DNA of 64,000 nt from Microthrixaceae bacterium. Its GTDB lineage: Bacteria > Actinomycetota > Acidimicrobiia > Acidimicrobiales > Microtrichaceae. Below the pieces are notes generated by a model. That model was not told the DNA's origin. It searched no databases and worked only from the letters and a program-made list of their open reading frames with translations. The translations under genes were made by a program, and so were the position numbers. Location of the stretch: contig JAMLGM010000006.1 of the NCBI GenBank assembly GCA_023957975.1, forward strand, positions 124,001 through 188,000. Reading direction: 5' to 3'. Shown in pieces: positions 6,715 to 61,330 of the stretch (position 1 is the stretch's first letter; each line of letters starts with the position of its first letter).

Positions 6715-8145
6715 ATGAGGGATCAACTCGACGCCGTCGTCGTCGGGGCCGGGCCGAACGGGCTTGCCGCGGCGGTCGCGATCGCCCGTGCGGGATACAG
6801 CGTCGCGGTCTTCGAGGCTGCCGACACGATCGGCGGCGGTGCTCGGTCCGGCGAACTGACCGTGCCCGGCCTCGTCCACGACCTCTGTTCGGCCTCGCAC
6901 CCGTTCGGTGTGGCGTCGCCATTTCTGTCGGCGCTGCCACTCGAGCAACACGGCCTCGAGTGGGTCTGGGCCGACGTCGATCTCGCCCACCCGCTCGACG
7001 ACGGCACCGCAGCGTTCGCCTACCGCGACTTCGATCGAACCTGTGACGGGCTCGGCGAGGACGGGCCCCGATGGCGCTCGGTGTTCGGGCCGTTGCTGTC
7101 GACCTTCGATGCGCTCACCGGCGACATCATGGGGCCCATCCTGCGCTGGCCCGATCACCCGGTGTCGATGGCCCGCTTCGGCCTGCGCGCCGCGATGCCG
7201 GCCACCGCGATCGGGCGAAGGTTCCGCACCGAGCGGGCGCGGGCGCTGTGGATGGGTAATGCCGCGCATCTGTACCACCGGCTCGACCGGCCCTTGTCCT
7301 CCTCGGTCGGGGTGATGTTGACCCTCGCCGGGCACGCACACGGTTGGCCGGTTCCGAGGGGCGGATCCGCGGCGATCACCGCCGCGCTGGCGTCACTGTT
7401 GGAATCTCACGGAGGCACCGTCACCACCGGAATGCACGTGCGGTCGCTCGAGGAGTTGCCGTCGAGCCGGGTCGTCATCCTCGATGTCGCTCCCGGTGCA
7501 GCGGTCGAACTCCTCGGAGACCGGCTTCCCACACGGCGCCAGCGCGCCTTGCGGCGCTTTCGTCACGGTCCGGCTGCCTTCAAGGTCGACTTTGCCGTAC
7601 GCAACGGTGTCCCGTGGACCGCGGAGAAGGTAGGAAGCGCCGGCTTCGTTCACCTCGGAGGTTCCGCGGCAGACATCGCGTCCGGCGAGGCGGCGACGGT
7701 TCGGGGCGACATGTCTCAGCGACCGTTCGTCCTGGTCGGCCAGCAACACGTCGCAGATCCCGGGCGTGCACACGACGATCTCGTGCCGATCTACGCCTAC
7801 TCCCATGTTCCCGCCGGCTGGAGCGGCGACGGAGAGTCGATCATCATCGACCAGATTGAGCGGTTCGCTCCCGGATTCCGCGAGCGCATCGTGGCCACCT
7901 CGGTGCAGCGACCCGCCGACCTGCAGCGCGACAACCCCAACCTTGTCGACGGAGACATCGTCGGAGGATCGAACGACCCGATGCAACTACTCGCTCGCCC
8001 TCGCCTCGCCCGCGACCCGTACTCGACCGGGGCGCCCGGAGTGTTCCTGTGTTCCGCGTCCACACCGCCCGGCGCCGGAGTTCACGGGATGAACGGCTAT
8101 CACGCTGCCACCCGAGCGCTGCGCCTGCTCGGCGAAGCACGCTGA
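6715..8145 (+). CDS. FAD-dependent phytoene-desaturase-type oxidoreductase (PYROXD2-like)
   Basis: This 476-residue flavoprotein opens with a dinucleotide-binding Rossmann motif (VVVGAGPNGLAAAVAIARAG) followed by the acidic residue ending the second strand (VAVFEA). The next segment, IGGGARSGEL, is typical of carotenoid desaturase and amine-oxidase-like enzymes. The C-terminal flavin-binding segment is GAGVHGMNGYHAA. The length and motifs match the NAD(P)/FAD-dependent oxidoreductases related to CrtI and PYROXD2, whose substrates are mostly unknown. It follows DUF3556 by 10 bp. No carotenoid synthesis gene is nearby, so a carotenoid substrate is not supported. Confidence 0.85.
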   Translation: MRDQLDAVVVGAGPNGLAAAVAIARAGYSVAVFEAADTIGGGARSGELTVPGLVHDLCSASHPFGVASPFLSALPLEQHGLEWVWADVDLAHPLDDGTAAFAYRDFDRTCDGLGEDGPRWRSVFGPLLSTFDALTGDIMGPILRWPDHPVSMARFGLRAAMPATAIGRRFRTERARALWMGNAAHLYHRLDRPLSSSVGVMLTLAGHAHGWPVPRGGSAAITAALASLLESHGGTVTTGMHVRSLEELPSSRVVILDVAPGAAVELLGDRLPTRRQRALRRFRHGPAAFKVDFAVRNGVPWTAEKVGSAGFVHLGGSAADIASGEAATVRGDMSQRPFVLVGQQHVADPGRAHDDLVPIYAYSHVPAGWSGDGESIIIDQIERFAPGFRERIVATSVQRPADLQRDNPNLVDGDIVGGSNDPMQLLARPRLARDPYSTGAPGVFLCSASTPPGAGVHGMNGYHAATRALRLLGEAR

Positions 8146-8146
8146 C

Positions 8147-8186
8147 TCAGCCCAGGGGTTGGGGTGTCAGCCCGGAGGTTGGGGCG
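8147..8186. repeat. 20-bp tandem duplication across the end of the DUF222 gene
   Basis: Two adjacent 20-bp copies (8147-8166 and 8167-8186) match at 17 of 20 positions. Each carries the TGA stop of the minus-strand DUF222 gene. The outer copy lies in the gap to the neighbouring gene and has no coding role. Loss of the inner stop would only lengthen the protein by a few Pro-rich residues. Confidence 0.7.
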
Positions 8187-9858
8187 GCTCTTTGTGGCGG
8201 GGGGTGTTGGTGATGGTGGTGTTGTCGGGTCGGGTGGCTTGGAGTGGTTGGTTGGGGTTGCCGGTGATGGTGGCGTGGCCGGTGTGGTGTCGGGTGTGGT
8301 GGTAGCGGCATAGGTGGGTGAGGTTGTCGGGGTCGGTGGTTCCGCCGTTGCTGTGGTGGGTGAGGTGGTGCAGGTCGGAGCCGATGGTGGGGCGTTCGCA
8401 TCCGGGGAAGCGGCAGCCGCGGTCGCGGTGGGCTAGGACGCGTCGCAAGATGTCGGGGGCGAGGCGGCGGGTGTGTCCGTAGGACAGGGGTGTGCCGTTG
8501 CGGGTGAAGGTGGGGGTGATGTCTGCGTTGGCGAGCAGGGCCCAGAGGGTTTGGTCGGTGATGTCGAGGTTGGTTTCGGTGTGGGTGGGTCCGGAGATGT
8601 CGGGTTGGCCGTGGTGTTGGGTGAACAGTGCGGTGAGGCCTTCGTGGGCGCGGTTGAGTTTGTCGAGGTCGATGTGGAGGTAGGTGCCGACGCGGCCGGG
8701 TTTGGTGGCGCCTGCTGCGGTGATGAGGGCGTCGCGTAGGGCGTTGGCTCTGCGTTGGGCCATGGTGGGCCCGCGTTCAGGCTCGGCAGGTTCCGCCGGC
8801 TCGGGTTCGGGTTCGGGCTCGGCGGGGTCAGGCTCCGCCGGCTCAGGCCCGGGTTCAGGTCCGGGTTCAGGTCCGGGCTCACCGGGCTCGGCGGGGTCAG
8901 GCTCCGCCGGCTCAGGCCCGGGTTCAGGTCCGGGTTCAGGTCCGGGCTCACCGGGCTCGGCGGGCTCCGGTTCGGTGGGTGGGCTGGCGCCTGTGGGTGC
9001 GCTGCCGCTGCCGCTGCCGCTGTCGCTGCAGCTGTCGCTGTCGGTTTCGTTGGTTTCGTTGGTGGTGGTGTGGGTTTGGCGGTTGATGAGGTCGTGGAGG
9101 ATGGTGGCGAGGAGTGCGCCGTCGTCGGGGGTGAGGTTGCCGTGGAGGTGCCAGCGTCCGTTGAATGTTTTGGACAGGGTGATGTGGGATGGTTCGGTGT
9201 TGGGGTCGCTGGGGCCGTCTTGGTCGAGGCGGTCGCGGACGTTGTCGCAGAATTGTTCGAATCGGTTGATGCTGGTGTGGGTGGCGGTGTCGATGAGGAG
9301 TTGTTCGACGTTGCGGATGGCTTCGATGGCGTCGAGGGTTTGTTGGTGGGTGTAGCGGGTGGGGATGATTTTGGAGATGGCGTCGAGGTGGCCGAGGGTG
9401 ATGGTGCCGTTGTTGTAGGCGGTGGCGATTTGTTCGAATCGTTCGATGGTGGTGGTGGCGCGTAGGAGCCGGTTGGCGTCGCGGCGGGCGATGCCGTGGT
9501 GTAGTGCGAGCCAGTGGCTCATGGTGGGGATGCGGTCGTGGAGGTGGACGTTTTCGTGTTGAGCGATTTTGACGGTGGCGACGTGGAGGCGTTGGGCGAG
9601 GTGGTTGAGGCGGGCTGCGGTGAGGGACAGTTCGCGGGCGATGTGTTCGCGTTGACCACCGCTTGAGCCGTTGAACGGTGTTGTGTCGCCTGGGGTGGTG
9701 TTGAGGGTGTCGATGCCGGTTTGGACGTGGTCGAGGAGTTGTTCGAGTTGTGTGGCGAGGGTGTTGCCGGTGGTGGTTGCGGTGTCGAGCAGACCCCAAC
9801 CGTCACCGCCGCTGTCACCGTTGTTGGTGTGTTGGGATGCCCTGTCGTGCTCGAACAT
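8167..9858 (-). CDS. DUF222 / HNH endonuclease (13E12 repeat family)
   Basis: This 563-residue protein has an N-terminal DUF222 helical region (about 35-235). A long Pro/Glu/Gly/Ala-rich linker follows (about 300-370), then a second conserved block and a C-terminal HNH nuclease domain. The nuclease shows two CxxC-like cysteines (GCRFPGCERP), the HHLTHHSNGG core and the final Cys-His-His element (HLCRYHHTRHH). The family is common in actinobacteria as the mycobacterial 13E12 repeat genes. Codons end in C with a striking excess of His, Thr and Asn, so the plus strand is almost pure G/T, unlike any neighbour. The ATG at 9858 fits a leaderless start; three SOS-box-like sites lie at or just upstream of it. 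Confidence 0.9.
   Translation of the reverse strand: MFEHDRASQHTNNGDSGGDGWGLLDTATTTGNTLATQLEQLLDHVQTGIDTLNTTPGDTTPFNGSSGGQREHIARELSLTAARLNHLAQRLHVATVKIAQHENVHLHDRIPTMSHWLALHHGIARRDANRLLRATTTIERFEQIATAYNNGTITLGHLDAISKIIPTRYTHQQTLDAIEAIRNVEQLLIDTATHTSINRFEQFCDNVRDRLDQDGPSDPNTEPSHITLSKTFNGRWHLHGNLTPDDGALLATILHDLINRQTHTTTNETNETDSDSCSDSGSGSGSAPTGASPPTEPEPAEPGEPGPEPGPEPGPEPAEPDPAEPGEPGPEPGPEPGPEPAEPDPAEPEPEPEPAEPAEPERGPTMAQRRANALRDALITAAGATKPGRVGTYLHIDLDKLNRAHEGLTALFTQHHGQPDISGPTHTETNLDITDQTLWALLANADITPTFTRNGTPLSYGHTRRLAPDILRRVLAHRDRGCRFPGCERPTIGSDLHHLTHHSNGGTTDPDNLTHLCRYHHTRHHTGHATITGNPNQPLQATRPDNTTITNTPRHKEPPQPPG
8821..8958. repeat. Two tandem copies of a 69-bp coding repeat
   Basis: Two back-to-back 69-bp copies (8821-8889 and 8890-8958) encode two copies of a 23-residue Pro/Glu/Gly unit (GEPGPEPGPEPGPEP then AEPDPAEP) in the linker of the DUF222/HNH protein. 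The copies appear identical, and further degenerate PEPEP units flank them. This is an in-frame, expandable low-complexity linker, not a CRISPR array. Confidence 0.85.
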
Positions 9859-9927
9859 GTGTTCATGGTATCGAACGGCAGTTCGGTTTGCAAGCCGAAA
9901 GCCCAATATTCCAGAACAAATGTTCGG
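9851..9927 (-). promoter_or_regulatory. Three SOS-box-like LexA sites and leaderless promoter of the DUF222/HNH gene
   Basis: Three GAAC-N4-GTTC sites lie at 9853-9864, 9873-9884 and 9914-9925. The middle one (TCGAACGGCAGTTCGG) differs from the mycobacterial SOS consensus TCGAAC-N4-GTTCGA at only the last base. Centre spacings are 20 and 41 bp, close to whole helical turns. The first site covers the start codon. A TACCAT -10 box (9870-9865, minus strand) ends 6 nt before the ATG, predicting a leaderless message. A further near-palindrome lies at 9882-9899. 13E12/HNH genes are known SOS targets in mycobacteria, so LexA control is well supported by analogy. Confidence 0.75.
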
Positions 9928-10049
9928 CACCTCCGAGCACCCCTCGGAGCGCGCTCACGCCGGCGCGACGCCGCCACCCACGCCAGCGCCAGAGTTAAGA
10001 CGCGCGCTTTACGAGACATCGCCGCAGAGCGCTCCGCTATCTTCAGCCC

Positions 10050-38204: not shown

Positions 38205-38654
38205 TCATGACCGTCCAAAGCCACCAGCCAGATCTGTTGGATTGATCCAGCGGAGCCCGCCAAACCGGGCAAAGTCGCTGTCGAACGAGCAGATGCTGGT
38301 CCCGTGCTCGATGGCGAGTGCGGCGAGATGTGCATCGGTCACGAGGTTCGCTCGCAGATCGCCGTCGATCAGCAAACGCTTGAGGATGTCGCGATGGCGC
38401 TGACCAGCAGCGGGCACCCACACCTGCGCGATGTCGAGCCAGTCCGAGACGAACCCCCACGCATCCCTGGGGCTCAACGGGTTCGCACTCACACGGGGAT
38501 GAGTCATGATCCGCTGAAACGCCATCAACGACACCCATGGCAACCCGACACGCTCGTTGCCGTTCAACGCGTCTTCGAGCCACGAGCGAGCAACCTCGTG
38601 GAAATGTGACTGTTCGTCAACGGCGTAGATCAGGACATTGGCGTCGACGATCAC
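38205..38654 (-). CDS. vapC: VapC-type PIN-domain toxin
   Basis: This 149-residue PIN-domain ribonuclease has the first acidic residue in MIVDANVLIYAVD (Asp4). Further acidic residues lie in the central helix region, and TDAHLAALAIEHG and SFDSDFARF supply the metal-binding Asp residues. VapC toxins cleave tRNA or rRNA and are held inactive by their antitoxin. Its ATG overlaps the VapB stop by 4 bp (ATGA), the standard coupling in vapBC modules. Confidence 0.92.
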   Translation of the reverse strand: MIVDANVLIYAVDEQSHFHEVARSWLEDALNGNERVGLPWVSLMAFQRIMTHPRVSANPLSPRDAWGFVSDWLDIAQVWVPAAGQRHRDILKRLLIDGDLRANLVTDAHLAALAIEHGTSICSFDSDFARFGGLRWINPTDLAGGFGRS

Positions 38655-38893
38655 CGCTCGGACCCGTCGGCGACGACTTCATCAAGGAGTTCGAGAGCGT
38701 CGGCGATGTCGGTGACGTCGATGCGCAACCCCACGCTGGCGGTACGTTGCTGGAATTTGGTGGGCGGCAGCTCTCGCGCCAATCCCGCACGGGCGAGTTC
38801 GTTGACGGCCTCACCAAGGCCGATGTTGCGCTCGCGACGCAGCTGCTCGGCCGCCGCCACCACCTCTGGATCAAGCCGCACCGTAGTCCTCAT
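38651..38893 (-). CDS. vapB: VapB-type ribbon-helix-helix antitoxin
   Basis: This 80-residue protein has an N-terminal ribbon-helix-helix DNA-binding fold (MRTTVRLDPEVVAAAEQLRR, then GLGEAVNELARAGL). The C-terminal tail (RIDVTDIADALELLDEVV) would wrap VapC. It is translationally coupled to vapC. The -10 box TATAAT ends six bases before the ATG, so the mRNA is expected to be leaderless. A palindrome beside that box is the probable VapBC operator. Confidence 0.92.
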   Translation of the reverse strand: MRTTVRLDPEVVAAAEQLRRERNIGLGEAVNELARAGLARELPPTKFQQRTASVGLRIDVTDIADALELLDEVVADGSER

Positions 38894-40242: not shown

Positions 40243-41022
40243 TCAAAAGACGGTGTAGCCGCCGTCGATGACGAGCGCGTCGCCGGTGTGGAAGCTGGTC
40301 GCCGGGTCGCACAGGAACACCGCCGCCGCGCTCATTTCGCTCGGTTCAGCCCAACGGCTGAGTGGCGTGCGACGGATCATCCCGTTGCGGAACCGCTCGT
40401 GGTCATAGGCGGGCCCCGCCAACTCTGTCTTCGTCCAGCCCGGCAGGAGGGCATTCACGCGGATCTGGTGGTGACCGAGCGACACGGCCAGGGCGCGCAC
40501 CAGTCCGACCAAGGCGGTCTCGAGGTGCCGTACGCCTCGTTGCCACCGGCGCCGTGCATCGCTGAGGTCGACGACACCGCCACCAGCGCGCCGTTGCCGC
40601 CGGTTCGACCAGGTGGCGCGCACCGGCGCGCAGGGTCAGGAACGTGCCGTCGAGGTTCGTCGCCATCACGCGACGCCACTCGCTGAAGTCCATATCGGTG
40701 AACTGGCCGCCGATTCCGGTCGTTCCGGCATTGGCGAACACGGCGTCGATACGGCCACCCGCGGCCTCGACCGACGCCGCGAACGTCCGCTCGGTGACGT
40801 CCTCATCTGCGACGTCGCAGAGGAAGGACCATGCATCCACCCAAGCGCTCGCAGCGTGTCGACCGCAGCGTGGTTCTTGGTGTCGTTGCGGCCCCACAAC
40901 ACGATGTCGGCACCGGCCGCAGCGCACCCTGTCGCCAGCGCCAAGCCGATGCCGCCGTTCCCACCGGTCACCAACACCGTCCTGCCCGCGAGTTGTCCGC
41001 GTCCGCTGCCTCGATCGCCCAT
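40243..41022 (-). pseudogene. Short-chain dehydrogenase gene broken by three frameshifts
   Basis: A complete SDR can be read only by changing frame three times. From the ATG at 41022 come GRTVLVTGGNGGIGLALATG and VLWGRND. Near 40840 the match moves frame to give FLCDVADEDV, then AVFANAGTTG. Near 40603 it moves again to GALVAVSSTSAMHG and NEAYGTSR, and near 40522 once more to ETALVGLVRALAV, INVNALLPGW-like RVNALLPGWTKTEL and the end VIDGGYTVF. All three shifts have the direction of 1-nt deletions. The catalytic Tyr is present, but the Lys of YxxxK is lost at the last shift. It is a pseudogene unless the assembly is wrong here. Confidence 0.85.
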
Positions 41023-46949: not shown

Positions 46950-48484
46950 ATGACGGAAACGACCCAAACCCGAAGCGATTCGAAGCGCCGGCGGGTTCGC
47001 CGGCTCGCAATCGGAATCATCGCGGCAATCACCGCCGCATGTGCCCCCAACTCCGGCGGCGGAACCCCGTCAGACCCGGGGCCCGGAGACACGTCACCGC
47101 CAGCGCCTCGCGCGTACCATGGCGACGAATCGGTCACCTTGACGTGGGGGATCGATGAACCGAACGCCACCGGCTACGAGTGGCAGTGGCGGCCGTCGGA
47201 AACGTCGACGTCAACCTCCGAGACCACCGAAGTACCGGAGGTGGTCGCCACGATGGGCCTGACGCCGAACCGGCACTACTGGGCACGGGTGCGCTACCTC
47301 GATACCGACGGATCGGCCGGTGAATCGTCGAGTGGTACTTCGTTCTTCTTCGCCGACATGACGCTGCCCGTGGTGCGGATCAATACTGAACATGAAGTAG
47401 CGATCGGCCGCGAGTTGTACGTCAATGCCTCGATGACTATCGACCCCAATGGGTCGGGCGATGCCGCGTACTCCGGAACCACCCAGATTCGAGGAGCGGC
47501 AACTCGACGTGGGGCGCCCCGAAGAAGCCCTACCGACTGAAGCTGTCGACGAAATCGAGCCTGATGGGGATGACCACCAACCGGGATTGGATCCTGTTGG
47601 CCAACTTCTACGACCCCAGTCACCTGCGCACCGAGTTGGCATTCGACCTGAGTCGACAGACCGACCTTTCATTCACCCCGACGTACCGCTACGTAGAAGT
47701 CATCTTGAACGGCCGCTATGACGGCCTCTACATGCTCGGCGAGCAGGTGGAGGTCGACTCCGGTCGCGTTGAACTCGACGAGATGGGTCCGACGGACAAC
47801 TCCGGCGAGGCGCTGACCGGGGGCTACATGTTGGAATTCGACTTCCGCCTCGATACCGCGGTTGAGCCCGGCTTCGTGTCGGGAGAGGGCGTCAAGGTTG
47901 CGATCAAGGAGCCGGACCCACCCGCCCACGAACAGGCCGCGTACATCCGCTCCTACTTCAATGCGTTCGAGGCCGCGACCCTCAGCCCGACGTTCGCCGA
48001 TCCCGTCACCGGCTTTCGCTCCTACCTCGACGTCGACGCCTTCATCGACTGGTACATCATCGCCGAGCTGACCCGACAGCAGGATGCGGCGTGGGCCAGC
48101 ACGTTTTTGACCAAACCCAGGAACGGGAAGCTCACGTTCGGACCCGTCTGGGACTTCGATTTGTCCATGGGCACAAAGAACGAGCACTCGCCCGGCTGGC
48201 CAGCGACCGGTTGGTGGATCAACCTGCCGGTCTTCGGCAAGTGGATCCCGCGCCTGTTCGAGGATCCGGCGCTGCGCGCACAGACCGCCGCTCGCTTCGC
48301 CGAACTCCGGCCAGCACTCGAAACCGTCGTCGCGCAGATTCCAGAAACGGCCGAGCCGATTTCCACCGCACGCCTCATGGACGCCGGCAGATGGAAGCGC
48401 ACCGTCACCTCGAACGATAAGGACGCGTTCCTCGTGAATTGGTTGACCGACAGGATCAACTGGATGAGCGGCCGACTCGGCTGA
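46950..48484 (+). pseudogene. CotH-family secreted protein gene with one 1-nt deletion
   Basis: The first part (46950-47540) encodes a basic signal peptide ending TAACAPN, a Gly/Pro linker, a fibronectin type III-like domain (YEWQWRPSE, YWARVRYLD) and the start of a CotH domain. The frame then leaves the family at IRGAAT. Reading one frame over from 47496 restores GNSTWGAPKKPYRLKL, a CotH hallmark. It continues as DWILLANFYDPSHLRTELAF, YDGLYMLGEQVEV and FGPVWDFDLSMG to the stop at 48484. A single missing base near 47495 explains the break (IRG-R-GNSTW). CotH proteins are atypical kinases that modify secreted proteins; as sequenced, this one is disrupted. Confidence 0.85.
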
Positions 48485-49134: not shown

Positions 49135-50769
49135 ATGAGGCTGAGCGTTTTGTCGTATTCGGCGACGTTGGACGGAGTTCCACTGCGGCAAGGACCGGCC
49201 CGAGAACACGCGAACTCCATTCATCTTGCGACGCTGGTTGACGCGCTGAGCACGCCCGTTGCCCGGTTCGACGACCCCGGCGCCGGGAATCCTGGTGACC
49301 CCGCCCTAGCGTTTCAGCGCCTCACGCGCTGCCCGAACGCGACAATGGAGCTGGCGGGCAAACGATCGCTTGCCGAGGCAACCCCTCGTCGTGAGGACTG
49401 GCGGCGGATCGTGGCCAACTCGGGAATCGGTGCCCTCGGCCACGGCGAGCGGATCGATCTCGCCCGCCTCGCCACCGTCGCCCACCGTCCCGATGATTCG
49501 AGGGTCACCACCGACGCTCACCGGCTCGTCGCCCTCGCCTCCACCGTCGCAACGCCTCAGACGTCGAGCCAAACCCAGGCATTGGCGGACGAGTTGGCCA
49601 GCCTCCTCGCTCCGCAGATCACGAGGGCTTCCGACATCCGAGGCAACAACCGCATCTGGTTGATGGACCTCTTGCACGCGTACGCCCAACTGACCACCAC
49701 GATGCTGGAGGCCTGGTATCGATCCGAGTCGCTTCGCGGCACCGAGGGCGCGGCCCGACGGTGGCTCAAGGAGCACGACCACCTCGCCGTGGGCGAGCAC
49801 CCGGTCGTCGCGGATCTGTTGCACCGGATCGACACCGGGATGTTCCGGGCAACCCCGAGCGATGAGGAGTTTCGGGCGCTGTTCGGGCTCGAAACGTCGA
49901 ACACCGTCGAACTCTTCGCCGGACGACGCGATTTTCGCGGCTTCCTGCCGCTGTTGTCCCCTGATCTCCCGTCGGAATTCGAGCGTCGGGGGATTCAACC
50001 AACCGGCGTGCACTGGTGGCATGCCGAAGACGACGTGGCCGCGCTGATCGCGGTCACCGCCTTGTTGGCCAGCCGCGGCGTTACCGTGGCCTTTCCCTCG
50101 CTACAACACCAGGGCGTGGCTCGGCGAGCCTCGAGCATTCAGGGCTTCAGCGGGTTCGGCGTGGGGGCCGGGTTCTCGCCCTACACCCATGCGGTCGCAG
50201 ACGCGAGCAACCTCTTTACCTCCAGCAACGACGGCGAGACCGACACGCTCGAAATCCGCATGACCGACGACGTCGCCTCGGACGCACGGTGGCAGGAACT
50301 CACCATCACGTCCGACGACGCGCCGCAGGTGCCGTTTCGCCGCATCACCGACGACACCGAATGCCTCGACCACGCGATCATCGCCCGCGTACCGGTGAAC
50401 GCTCACGGCGTCGTCCGGGTGCACTGGGTGGTTGCGGGTTTCACGGCGATGGCGACTGCCGAGTCGACCGCGTGGCTCTGCCGTGAATGGCCATGGGTGC
50501 TCGATCAGTACCGCCGGTGCGGCAACACGCTCGACCGACATCAGATGGTGGTGGTCCTGGGCAAACAGGCGGTACTGGGCAAGCAGGCGGTCGATTACAA
50601 CGCTCCGCTCCGACCCGACGACAGCCCGTTGCGCTGGGTGCCACGTTCGGTGATTTGGGGAGACCGCCACGAACTCGCGCCGCCGCCACCGTCGAGGTTC
50701 CGAACCAACGGGGTCCCAGGGACCGACGCGGCTCAAGTTACGCCCAGCGGCGTTCCGTTAGCCCGATAG
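49135..50769 (+). CDS. Unrecognised 544-residue protein, partner of the TraG/VirD4-like ATPase
   Basis: I recognise no family. The protein is soluble, with no signal peptide or membrane helix. A helical central region contains NNRIWLMDLLHAYAQLTTTM. A beta-rich part follows with FSGFGVGAGFSPYTHAVAD, then a short exact repeat (LGKQAV twice, residues about 475-486) and a Pro-rich end. An internal segment (PFRRITDDTECLDHAIIARV then a VHW strand) loosely resembles LRRHIDLLNSEVEVVRVATV in the next protein, which may point to a shared domain. GGAGG lies 7 nt before the ATG. The next gene starts 132 bp downstream on the same strand. Confidence 0.7.
   Translation: MRLSVLSYSATLDGVPLRQGPAREHANSIHLATLVDALSTPVARFDDPGAGNPGDPALAFQRLTRCPNATMELAGKRSLAEATPRREDWRRIVANSGIGALGHGERIDLARLATVAHRPDDSRVTTDAHRLVALASTVATPQTSSQTQALADELASLLAPQITRASDIRGNNRIWLMDLLHAYAQLTTTMLEAWYRSESLRGTEGAARRWLKEHDHLAVGEHPVVADLLHRIDTGMFRATPSDEEFRALFGLETSNTVELFAGRRDFRGFLPLLSPDLPSEFERRGIQPTGVHWWHAEDDVAALIAVTALLASRGVTVAFPSLQHQGVARRASSIQGFSGFGVGAGFSPYTHAVADASNLFTSSNDGETDTLEIRMTDDVASDARWQELTITSDDAPQVPFRRITDDTECLDHAIIARVPVNAHGVVRVHWVVAGFTAMATAESTAWLCREWPWVLDQYRRCGNTLDRHQMVVVLGKQAVLGKQAVDYNAPLRPDDSPLRWVPRSVIWGDRHELAPPPPSRFRTNGVPGTDAAQVTPSGVPLAR
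50557..50592 (+). repeat. 18-bp tandem duplication coding LGKQAV twice
   Basis: Two adjacent 18-bp copies (50557-50574, 50575-50592) differ at two positions and duplicate six residues near the C-terminus of the unknown protein. It looks like a recent in-frame slippage. Confidence 0.75.
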
Positions 50770-50901
50770 ATGTCTCGGCTCGGTGCTGATAACACCGGCG
50801 ATAGCGACAAACTGCTGAGTTGATCCCGTGGTTCGGTCGTGTCGGTCGGGCCCACGCTGGAGTCCGCACCTGCAGGTGCCAGAACCGCTGGGAGGACTCC
50901 G

Positions 50902-53900
50902 ATGACACATTTTGGCGATCGGCCGGACGCGACGATCGAACGACCGGTTCGAGCTTTCGTTCGACGAGTGGTGACACTCGCAAATCGGGTCGAGCCCGTC
51001 CCGGTCGATGGCGAGGCCGACGACGACGTCGGCGACCCCTTCGAACTCGTTGCGGCGGCAACCATCCGAGGCCAACGCCCCGGGCGCCTGGTCTATCCGC
51101 TCGTCGAACTGGGTGGTGGCGCTGACCGCCGACCGGTCGAGTTGGACTCCAGCACGCTCGATCGACTCCATTCGGCGACGCCGACCATGGCGCGAATCGC
51201 CGTCAATCGGGAACAGGCGGCCGTCGTTTGCGACATCGCCGACTTCTATACCGAAGCCACGACGACGATCGCTGCGACCCACATGTTGCAGTTGCACGCC
51301 GAGGCGCTGCGGGCCGCGGGGGCGACCCCGTGGTTCGATGAAGCCGCCACGGCGTCGTTCGCGGCGAGGGTCTCGCCGAGCGATCGTTCCCCACGGGCCC
51401 GGTCCCGTGCCCGAAGGTTGGCCAACGACGTCATCGCCGCAGCCGGTATTCCCAGCTCAGCCCGATCGCCGACCGGCGACTACGCGATCGGCTGGATGTC
51501 GGACGGTCCGGGGGCCTTCGGTTCCGAATCGGGACTCGCGCTCGCCAACGGGAACAACCTCGCTTGGGTGCGACTCGTCGAATCGGATGGAATCAGCTTC
51601 GTACGGGTCCACGGCACCTTCGGCACGATCCCAGGAGCGGCCGATTCCCGGCCGCTGCGGCGCCATATCGACCTGTTGAATTCCGAGGTTGAGGTCGTGC
51701 GTGTCGCTACCGTTCCAGCGCCACGGGGTAAGCGCCGGTATCTCATCGCCGTGTGCGACGTGCCCGTGTCGCAATTCTCCCCGCGCATGCTCGAACACAT
51801 GGTGTGGGCCGTAGCGACACTGCTCGACTGGGGGGTCGACGATGCCCTCGACTCCGGACTTGTCGTACCGGACGGAGCCGGCGCGGATCCGATATCGGTC
51901 GATTTCGTGCGACCCGAACGGTGGCTGAAGCACCAGGTCGCCCCGCGTCTGGTGAAGCGATCCTCGAACGAGCGAACTGCCGATCACCGCCTCGCGATCG
52001 ACGACGGCGGAGACGTCGCCGCCGCGCCGGAGGCTGTCCCGGACGCCGCGCCCCCTCGCCCACGCGGCACGTCGCTCAGCCCCAACTCGACGACGTGGCG
52101 CGAGGTGGCCGCACCTCACCTGGAGATGCTGATTCGCCGTGACGACGTTTCGCTGCTCAAGTCGAACGACGACGTCACAGCGAACGACCTCTCCGTCAAC
52201 GACCTCGCGGCCGCGGCGTTGCGTCTGCTGATCGCCGGGCCCGCCGCGTTCGGACGGCTCACGTCGCTGGCCTCGCAGGCGGGACCCGAGGCCATCGTTG
52301 GCCACGTCGATGAGGTGGTGATCAGCTCGGCGATCGCCGAACAGCATCGACTCCGAGCGTTGTCCGACGCCGTCGGGGCCTGGGGCCGAGACCAACCGCA
52401 TCAGGTACGCCAACAGATGGGCTCGGCGTTGCAGCCGATGTTGGGAGTTCGCCATCCCGGGTTCGAAGCAACGATCGACACTGCGCTCGGTCTGGACGAT
52501 GCGGCACCGTCCGAGCGTCTCAAGACGATCGCGGTGCATCTCGGCTCGCTTGATGTCGACGACGCGAGCTATCCGCTTCAACTGGTCGATCTGGCGATCG
52601 ACTCGATCTCATCCGGAACGCTGATGGCGCGCACTGCCTACTCTGCGAGCTCCGACCGCGCACCCCTGGCAGCGGTGCTGGCGACCGCGGCGGCGCTGCA
52701 CCAGTGCTCGCTCGAACCCGACGTGATCCGTGCAATTCAGTACCTCGCTCAGCCGCTGCGGGCAGCGGACCTGCTGCAACTTCGAAGCGGCGACCGGATC
52801 GGGCCGATCGTGAAACGGCGAGGCCGACACGTGATGGCGCACCGCCGCGACGGCTTCACGGTATTCATCGGACCGCCGGGATGCGGCAAGTCGAGCACGC
52901 TCAACACGGTCCTGTCCGGATACACCGGCCCCGTCGTGGCGACGACAACGAAGACGGGTGAGTGGGAGCAGTCCTATGTGACCATCCGGGCCGAGCGAGG
53001 TCCGATCTGTCTCTTCGACCCGGCCAACAAGGTCGCCGATCCACACCCATCGGCCCGTCGCATCCGCTTCGACGTCGTGCAGTTGTGCACCTCCTATGCC
53101 GAGGCGAGGCGAATCGCCTGGCAAATCGCCGAAGGCACCGACCGGAACTCGTTGACGGCCGCCGACTTCTGGATCTCCTACGCCCAGAGCCTGCTCGGGC
53201 CGCTGTTGTTCGCCGCGAATCTCGACTCTGGCGGCATCGCCGATGTGCTGTCGTGGAACGTCGCCGATCGGCTCGACCGACCGATCGAAATCCTCACCGA
53301 TCACGGTCACGAACCGGAGGCTGCGCAGGTGCGTGCGATCGTCGAGACCGATTCGCGAACCCGCGACAGCGTGCTGGCAACCGTCACGGCGCTCCTCGCT
53401 CCATTCTCGACCGGCGACGCGGCACGCCTGGCGACGCACGGGCACCGGTTCGATCCGTTCGCCGACTGGATCGAACCCAACGGCACGGTGCTGTTGTGCC
53501 TCGACCCCACCGACACCGCGCAGCTCGGGCTGCTGATCGAGATCTTCCTCAGCTGGCTGATCCGTGCACGAACCACACTCGCCGACAACGGCTGGAGCGG
53601 ACCGTCGTGTCTGCTCGGTGGCGACGAGATCGCCCACGTGTGTGCGCTCAGCACCCTGCCGCGTCTCATCGGCGAGGGGCCGGGCCGCGGCGTGTCGGCC
53701 ATCGTGTGTCTCCAGGATTTGAGTCAGGCGCACGCACGTTGGGGTGCGTCGGGAGATCTGTTTCTCACCGCAACCGGCAACCGCGTGTTGTTTCCCGGCG
53801 TCGCCAGCACGGCGCTGCTCAACTGGGTGACCCCGCTGCTGGGGCGCGGCACGTCGAGGCCTGCGGGCTTCGTCAACCGGAACCGTTCAGGTTTCGATCT

Positions 53901-54138
53901 CGACGACGATCACGAGCCGAGCGACGTCGAAAACGTCGGACAGGTCATTCATCCCGGCCGGAACGCAGCGGTGCTGATCACCCCCGACTCGTCGGTGTAT
54001 TCCGCACAACAGGCCCGGGCCCAAGACGACCCGTTGTACTGCCAGGCCATTGCCGAATCGCAGGCCACGTTGATCTCGTGGAGCATCCTCCCGCCGGCGC
54101 CAGACGAACGCGAACCTCCTGCCGGAAGCGACACGTGA
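50902..54138 (+). CDS. Large TraG/VirD4-like ATPase with novel N-terminal region
   Basis: This 1078-residue protein has a C-terminal ATPase of the type IV coupling-protein kind. FIGPPGCGKSSTLNTVL is Walker A (about residue 655). VATTTKTGEWEQSY and GPICLFDPANKVADP match the next VirD4 strands. SCLLGGDEIAHVCAL is Walker B (about 900), followed by GRGVSAIVCLQDLSQAHARWG, the usual TraG sensor region. About 600 residues before it match nothing I know, and the N-terminal membrane helices of true VirD4 proteins are absent. GGAGG lies 6 nt before the ATG. No relaxase, VirB4 or pilus gene is nearby, so conjugation is not supported. Confidence 0.78.
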   Translation: MTHFGDRPDATIERPVRAFVRRVVTLANRVEPVPVDGEADDDVGDPFELVAAATIRGQRPGRLVYPLVELGGGADRRPVELDSSTLDRLHSATPTMARIAVNREQAAVVCDIADFYTEATTTIAATHMLQLHAEALRAAGATPWFDEAATASFAARVSPSDRSPRARSRARRLANDVIAAAGIPSSARSPTGDYAIGWMSDGPGAFGSESGLALANGNNLAWVRLVESDGISFVRVHGTFGTIPGAADSRPLRRHIDLLNSEVEVVRVATVPAPRGKRRYLIAVCDVPVSQFSPRMLEHMVWAVATLLDWGVDDALDSGLVVPDGAGADPISVDFVRPERWLKHQVAPRLVKRSSNERTADHRLAIDDGGDVAAAPEAVPDAAPPRPRGTSLSPNSTTWREVAAPHLEMLIRRDDVSLLKSNDDVTANDLSVNDLAAAALRLLIAGPAAFGRLTSLASQAGPEAIVGHVDEVVISSAIAEQHRLRALSDAVGAWGRDQPHQVRQQMGSALQPMLGVRHPGFEATIDTALGLDDAAPSERLKTIAVHLGSLDVDDASYPLQLVDLAIDSISSGTLMARTAYSASSDRAPLAAVLATAAALHQCSLEPDVIRAIQYLAQPLRAADLLQLRSGDRIGPIVKRRGRHVMAHRRDGFTVFIGPPGCGKSSTLNTVLSGYTGPVVATTTKTGEWEQSYVTIRAERGPICLFDPANKVADPHPSARRIRFDVVQLCTSYAEARRIAWQIAEGTDRNSLTAADFWISYAQSLLGPLLFAANLDSGGIADVLSWNVADRLDRPIEILTDHGHEPEAAQVRAIVETDSRTRDSVLATVTALLAPFSTGDAARLATHGHRFDPFADWIEPNGTVLLCLDPTDTAQLGLLIEIFLSWLIRARTTLADNGWSGPSCLLGGDEIAHVCALSTLPRLIGEGPGRGVSAIVCLQDLSQAHARWGASGDLFLTATGNRVLFPGVASTALLNWVTPLLGRGTSRPAGFVNRNRSGFDLDDDHEPSDVENVGQVIHPGRNAAVLITPDSSVYSAQQARAQDDPLYCQAIAESQATLISWSILPPAPDEREPPAGSDT

Positions 54139-59890: not shown

Positions 59891-61330
59891 CTACCGGGCC
59901 CGTCGCTCGATCACCCGCCGCTGAGCCGGGGTCTGAGGCGCCTCACGGTGAGCCTTTCGTGTCACCGACCGTTGAGCCCTGATGAAGTCGAGCGCTTCCG
60001 TCGGCGACATCCCGCCGTCGACGAGCAGGCAACCGGCGACGGTCGCCGTTCGTCCGATCCCGCCCCAGCAGTGGACATACACCACACCCCGCTCGGACTC
60101 CGCGCGAATGGTCTCGATGATCTCGTCGTAGCCCTCGGCCGGGCGAACCCCCATGTCGGGGATCCCGTGCGACACGACCCGGAGGTCGAGGTTTCGGCGG
60201 GATCCGGCCAGCGCGACGTAGTGGTCGTAGGGCGCAAGGGGGTCGTGTTCGTTCGTCAGGTTCACGAACGTTCGAACACCGTTGTCGACCAACAGGTTGA
60301 CCTTTGCGTCGGCCTTTCCGGCAGAGGGGTCGCCCGGGTATTCGCCCGCCAGAACCCGTCCGGGCTCGATCCAGTAGCCGTGGACGAACTGATCAAACGG
60401 CCATGGTTGTGCGGCGGTGGCGCCGACGGCCTGATCGTGAAGTCGAGCGGCCACGGCACGAATTCGGTCGCGTTGGGCCAGCTTCGCCAACCACTGCGTC
60501 GGCATCTCCGCCTCGCCCCAGATAGCGCCGGCAAGCTGTCCGGCGATTGCCGCGGTCGTATCGGCGTCGTCACCCAGGTTGGCCGCTCGCAGCACCGCGT
60601 CGGCGAAGCTGTTCGCCCCACCAACCGCCCATAACGCCGCTTCGAGTGCGTCGACCACGAACCCGGTGCCGCGAATCTCCGAATCGGATTTCGTCCTCCA
60701 CGACCCGCGAACGACCGCCTCGATCTGGGGGTCGAGTTCGCCCCATTGCCAGAACTCAGGCGACAACACCTCGTCTGGGGCGGCGCCACCGATGAGCGCG
60801 GCGGTCATCGCTCCGTAGACCCGACACGCATCCACCGGTCGGCGCGCAGGGTGGGTCGTCCGGCTGGACTCGGCCGACTTCTCCGCCGCGAGTCCGACGT
60901 CTTGGTGCCAACGGATCGGCACCGGGGCCAGCCGCATGAGCGACCCGTTCGCCGCCGCCTCCTCATCGATGACGGCGTCGACGACCGACCCGTCGCGAGC
61001 GAAGCGGGCGAGCGCTGCGGAGGTGGCATTGCCGATATCGAAACAGCGGTCTTTGACCGACCAGTAACCCTCATCGCGCCACAACAGGTAGCGGCGCAAT
61101 TGATCGGCGAGGTCGAGCTCGCCGGTATCGAGGATCGACTCGCCGAGACACATCGCCATCGTCGTGTCGTCAGTCCATTCCCCTGGCTTCAGTCCGAACG
61201 GTCCACCTCCGATGAGGTCGTCGATCGGTTCGAACGTCCCGGGAGAACGAAACTCCAACGTCGTTCCCACGGCGTCGCCGAGCGCCAATCCCAGCAGCGC
61301 ACCTGTTGATCGTTCCCGCGAAGTCATCAT
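59891..61330 (-). CDS. ADP-ribosylglycohydrolase fused to a tyrosine/dual-specificity phosphatase
   Basis: This 479-residue protein is a two-enzyme fusion. Residues about 8-300 are a DraG-type ADP-ribosylglycohydrolase with GLALGDAVGTTLEF, the metal motif EWTDDTTMAMCL and the C-terminal GDDADTTAAIAGQLAGA. Residues about 310-475 are a Cys-based phosphatase with VHCWGGIGRTATVAGC (HCx5R signature, Cys near 426) and an upstream candidate general-acid loop (HGIPDMGVRP). DraG enzymes remove ADP-ribose from proteins or nucleic acids. A phosphatase on the same chain suggests processing of two modifications or of phospho-ADP-ribose, which is inference. Confidence 0.87.
   Translation of the reverse strand: MMTSRERSTGALLGLALGDAVGTTLEFRSPGTFEPIDDLIGGGPFGLKPGEWTDDTTMAMCLGESILDTGELDLADQLRRYLLWRDEGYWSVKDRCFDIGNATSAALARFARDGSVVDAVIDEEAAANGSLMRLAPVPIRWHQDVGLAAEKSAESSRTTHPARRPVDACRVYGAMTAALIGGAAPDEVLSPEFWQWGELDPQIEAVVRGSWRTKSDSEIRGTGFVVDALEAALWAVGGANSFADAVLRAANLGDDADTTAAIAGQLAGAIWGEAEMPTQWLAKLAQRDRIRAVAARLHDQAVGATAAQPWPFDQFVHGYWIEPGRVLAGEYPGDPSAGKADAKVNLLVDNGVRTFVNLTNEHDPLAPYDHYVALAGSRRNLDLRVVSHGIPDMGVRPAEGYDEIIETIRAESERGVVYVHCWGGIGRTATVAGCLLVDGGMSPTEALDFIRAQRSVTRKAHREAPQTPAQRRVIERRAR

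Follow-up and report, generated by a model that had tools for sequence, protein, structure and literature searches.

Two genes, separated by 132 bp, lie on the forward strand of the 64,000-nucleotide stretch of Microthrixaceae DNA that we analysed (hereafter the window, whose positions are used unless a contig is named). The upstream gene, P1 (49135..50769), encodes 544 residues with no family match, and the downstream gene, P2 (50902..54138), encodes a predicted soluble protein of 1,078 residues with a putative C-terminal ATPase of the VirD4/TraG type. P1 has the ribosome site GGAGG 7 nt 5' of its ATG at 49135. The mechanical open reading frame of P2 opens at GTG 50839, but its start is most likely ATG 50902 because GGGAGG lies 6 nt upstream of that codon. 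Third-position GC periodicity was gene-like in nearly every 100-codon block of both genes, the weakest being the first block of P2. These observations agree with an earlier note on this DNA, made from the letters alone, which had described strong ribosome sites and intact frames. We conclude that P1 and P2 are real genes with intact frames. Their codon usage falls at the 15th–20th percentile of 882 genes from the same genome, mildly low and within the normal range, and gives no clear sign of recent transfer. A simple scan, which is not strong evidence, recognised neither a sigma-70-like promoter nor anything resembling a terminator between the two genes.

The C-terminal part of P2 was matched by two Pfam families above their curated cut-offs, T4SS-DNA_transf at residues 647–951 (4.6e-08, 32.8 bits) and TraG-D_C at residues 908–985 (2.6e-08, 34.3 bits), and by a sub-threshold VirD4-like NCBIfam model. 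The coupling-protein motifs that had been read in the sequence beforehand (GPPGCGKSS, LLGGDE and LQDLSQ) are all present. On the forward strand, the Walker A motif GPPGCGKSS occupies residues 657–665 (52870..52896), the Walker B acidic pair lies in GGDEI at residues 906–910 (53617..53631), and the LQDLSQAHARWG block at residues 937–948 (53710..53745) retains the family-invariant Q, Q and R. The GK of Walker A, the DE of Walker B, Q938, Q942 and R946 are residues invariant in 33 related sequences. P2 departs from the other sequences at further invariant positions, with WSP replaced by FDV and the LDEVANIAPL-type segment replaced by GDEIAHVCAL (L-D-E...A-P to G-D-E...C-A). An AlphaFold2 model of residues 580–1078, built with 31 sequences, reached a pLDDT of at least 90 for 200 core residues and was poor before residue ~645 and after ~985; it predicts a TrwB-like fold, a RecA-like core with a helical insert. 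The top Foldseek matches to the model were Cagbeta (8dol, 4e-11) and TrwB (1e9r, 4e-11), with a TM-score of ~0.5, followed by HerA and TdpAB. By profile and predicted fold, residues ~630–1000 (52789..53901) are thus assigned to the VirD4/TraG-type ATPases. Kept catalytic residues together with changed invariant ones suggest an active but re-purposed enzyme. In a 34-row tree, P2 formed the longest branch by far (~3.4–4.0 substitutions per column), and its place is unsure because of this length.

The N-terminal region of P2, residues 1–600 (50902..52701), has no detectable homologue. Searches with residues 1–604 found no relative in 396 phylum genomes, where the best non-self match (E 0.003) was short and contained a stop, and none in plasmids; matches at E 0.003–0.1 were rejected as short and mostly crossing stops. 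Comparison with relaxases and other module proteins gave no match. The earlier description of about 600 extra residues of unrecognised fold agrees with the lack of any match in Pfam, profile and phylum searches. No hydrophobic segment of P2 exceeded the threshold for a membrane helix. The earlier note had been right that N-terminal membrane helices are missing, but this is no peculiarity of P2: its nearest ATPase relatives as a rule lack them too.

We found matches to P2 in 146 of 397 genomes of the order, scoring about two candidates per genome; among the matches listed, all covered the ATPase part only, starting at query residue 572 at least. The nearest relatives are soluble ATPases, mostly of 430–500 residues, and in several loci they are adjoined by a TrwC/MobF relaxase and a BTAD-type regulator. 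Coupling ATPases without a membrane helix are therefore common in this group. Scanning the GTDB genome collection with the ATPase alignment yielded 62 loci, with MobF in at least 30 and a WYL-domain gene nearby in at least 35, both lower bounds as the gene caller missed some genes. None of the 62 loci held a relative of P1 or of the P2 N terminus. Two apparently long coupling proteins (L033, 790 residues; L154, 944 residues) were set aside, as their N termini look like gene-calling artefacts. P2 stands out for its ~600-residue N terminus, its substituted invariant residues, the lack of a neighbouring relaxase and the presence of P1. Scanning for patterns with either protein on its own returned nothing, as did a search of viral contigs with the ATPase alignment, and we found no described match to the pair in the literature. 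Conserved co-occurrence of the two genes across Acidimicrobiia, proposed as a check, did not emerge: among the genomes searched, no other contained the pair, which is known from this single example.

In many Acidimicrobiia, genes for GpsA, CofC, a PIG-L-type deacetylase and WYL (PafBC-like) proteins mark a fixed site in the chromosome at which a soluble ATPase of the VirD4 type is encoded, often in convergent orientation to a MobF relaxase gene (L045, L051, L111, L112, L124, L146, L154 and others). In L040 and L046 the soluble ATPase precedes ImuA/ImuB/DnaE2-type genes. This chromosomal pair looks vertically inherited, and it may represent a domesticated conjugation pair.

P1 matched nothing recognised, as had been stated from its sequence, and no homologue appeared in the samples searched: 33 family, 148 class and 396 phylum genomes, plasmids and phages. 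Homologues of P1 living apart from the ATPase, which would have spoken against a two-gene unit, were likewise absent from every search. Class- and phylum-scan matches at E 2e-4 to 0.05 were taken as chance after the strongest had been inspected; among these were one in a UvrD-like helicase gene and two over one HD-like protein in a single genus. A weakly similar internal segment supposed to be common to P1 and P2 dissolved on comparison (best BLASTP E 1.0; nothing in HHalign, P ~0.3). AlphaFold2 gave P1 alone a pLDDT of 35, and the N-terminal ~240 residues are probably helical according to this low-confidence model. The C-terminal half, which by eye we take to resemble an unnamed alpha/beta domain, offers a suggestive match at residues ~298–454 (DHAIIAR...AGFTAMATA; 50026..50497, forward strand). 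In public records this domain follows DNA-binding regions that are sigma-like HTH, XRE or membrane-anchored. A profile of the domain, A1, ranked P1 first of 853 proteins (E 0.0027) and first of 1,870 (E 0.0058), an enlarged profile gave weaker values that were not significant (E 0.02 and 0.046), and the HHalign score stood just above those of 100 shuffles. We treat the match as a lead and not as an identification, because the domain was picked after P1 had been read; judged from sequence, the C-terminal half of P1 may be such a domain. A hydrophobic stretch at residues 301–319 scores like a membrane helix, yet it lies inside the presumed alpha/beta domain.

The neighbours of the pair are ordinary chromosomal genes, identified by Pfam as CotH, CopD, MarR, a ClC channel, nitrite/sulphite reductase, a formate/nitrite transporter and HemD. 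The ClC–MarR arrangement is also conserved in nine further genomes from the family, which lack P1 and P2; because the gene beyond MarR varies between genomes, this empty-site comparison does not allow an insertion boundary to be drawn. The reported lack of relaxase, VirB4, integrase and pilus genes nearby was borne out among the Pfam-scanned genes at 36–63 kb, and relaxase, VirB4 and PrgI queries against the window returned nothing. No recognised defence island surrounds the pair. The same genome has a second coupling ATPase, with two predicted membrane helices, on contig C1, where a PrgI-like gene and a recombinase-like open reading frame fall within the same 20 kb. This conjugation-like cluster spans C1:312–332 kb, and a MobF relaxase lies upstream at about C1:296–300 kb, its gene reaching the end of the examined stretch at C1:300000; the relaxase search covered 2.06 Mb of the 3.6-Mb genome. 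Together, C1 ~296000–332000 (L225, L226 and L035) resembles a conjugative element. Although the predicted ATPase fold of P2 is an ordinary one, it belongs to no conjugative element nearby.

Several other features of the window were recorded. An fn3 lipoprotein open reading frame is followed after 29 bp by a CotH kinase frame that lacks the first ~34 profile positions (46950–48484), and the two are possibly one frameshift-split gene. A short frame at 40243–40623 matches an enoyl-reductase family over its C-terminal third only and looks like a gene remnant, and the gene for a PIN-domain protein, preceded by a small gene (38205–38881), forms with it what resembles a VapBC-like toxin–antitoxin pair. 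Positions 8001–10000 show a strong local GC skew of +0.33 and an AT skew of −0.39 over one minus-strand gene of 587 residues. At 59891–61330, an ADP-ribosylglycohydrolase is fused to a dual-specificity-phosphatase-like domain.

The simplest account, to which we lean with little more than even confidence, makes P2 a coupling-protein motor that has been withdrawn from conjugation and acts together with P1 in the cytosol. A stand-alone motor fits the locus because the neighbours are ordinary, the ATPase core is conserved, its predicted fold is TrwB- and HerA-like, and the conjugative element on C1 is separate. P2 would be a soluble, probably hexameric RecA-type ATPase from the VirD4/TraG family of coupling proteins; its core most likely keeps the ability to bind and hydrolyse ATP and to move a nucleic-acid or nucleoprotein substrate, like TrwB and HerA. 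In place of the usual membrane anchor and of docking to a relaxase, P2 would have its ~600-residue N terminus, which probably binds a substrate or partner. The likeliest partner or regulator of P2 is P1, whose gene directly precedes it in the same orientation; P1 may act through a putative alpha/beta domain, sensor-like in kind, within its C-terminal half. The two genes would be transcribed together and their products would interact. It is possible that the pair has lost its function despite the intact frames. Of the stand-alone machine imagined in the earlier note, the location outside any nearby conjugative element stands, but nothing points specifically to defence or contact-dependent transfer.

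Comparison with known systems places P2 closest to the short soluble Acidimicrobiia ATPases by MobF/TrwC (L006/L037, L010, L044), with which it shares the same domain (31–37% identity over ~330 residues) and the lack of a membrane helix before it. Unlike P2, these proteins have almost no N-terminal part in their 430–500 residues and often adjoin a relaxase, whereas P2 has ~600 extra residues, P1 in place of the relaxase and changes at family-invariant positions. With TrwB, VirD4 and Cagbeta it shares the predicted core fold (1e9r, 8dol), the Walker motifs and the TraG-D C-terminal motif block, but it lacks their transmembrane anchor, is accompanied by neither relaxase nor mating-pair genes and carries a large unrelated N terminus. 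P2 resembles HerA-type translocases and two-component HerA systems in being a soluble member of their ATPase superfamily that is paired with another gene, here one of no known family, and HerA comes next after the coupling proteins among its fold matches; the profile of P2, however, is VirD4/TraG, and no NurA, SIR2 or other nuclease or effector partner was recognised.

One rival reading is a two-gene anti-phage or anti-plasmid system, akin to defences that rely on HerA/FtsK-type ATPases, in which P2 would be the motor and P1 would sense either a signal or incoming foreign DNA. The rarity and strong divergence of the pair, the HerA-superfamily fold found by Foldseek and the possible presence in P1 of a domain that occurs elsewhere behind DNA-binding domains are all consistent with it. 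We nevertheless consider it distinctly unlikely: PADLOC matches of either protein cover just 20–30 residues at Walker A, PHROGs matches are likewise at Walker A level, no nuclease, NADase or other effector was recognised, no recognised defence island surrounds the pair, and no second occurrence was found that could show such a context. An origin within conjugation, with P2 either left over from a MobF module or acting in trans with the C1 element, is unlikely as well. The nearest ATPases do belong to MobF–coupling-protein modules, and relaxase and conjugation-like cluster are present in the same genome, but that cluster owns a membrane-anchored coupling protein, relaxase and integrase are absent near P2, its frames and catalytic residues are intact, and its 600-residue N terminus matches neither relaxases nor other module proteins.

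Chromosomal DNA maintenance, akin to the fixed coupling-protein/relaxase pair of Acidimicrobiia by WYL and sometimes ImuA/ImuB/DnaE2, seems very unlikely. Many such chromosomal copies are among the nearest relatives of P2, but P2 has another location, lacks the genes that flank them and exceeds every one of them by far in divergence. One example does not separate roles in defence, in conjugation in trans and in DNA maintenance. A bolder version of the non-conjugative motor, a first-seen two-protein cytosolic machine that would combine a coupling motor, a new module at its N terminus and a sensor-like partner to deal with DNA that is damaged or comes from an invader, is a rather improbable proposition.

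Coupling proteins are membrane parts of conjugation. The interest of the locus lies in a soluble, strongly altered coupling protein with a new 600-residue region and a new partner, away from relaxase and secretion genes. The weight of the claim is limited because it comes from a single genome; if true, it would mean that cells can recruit the motor of conjugation to a different job.
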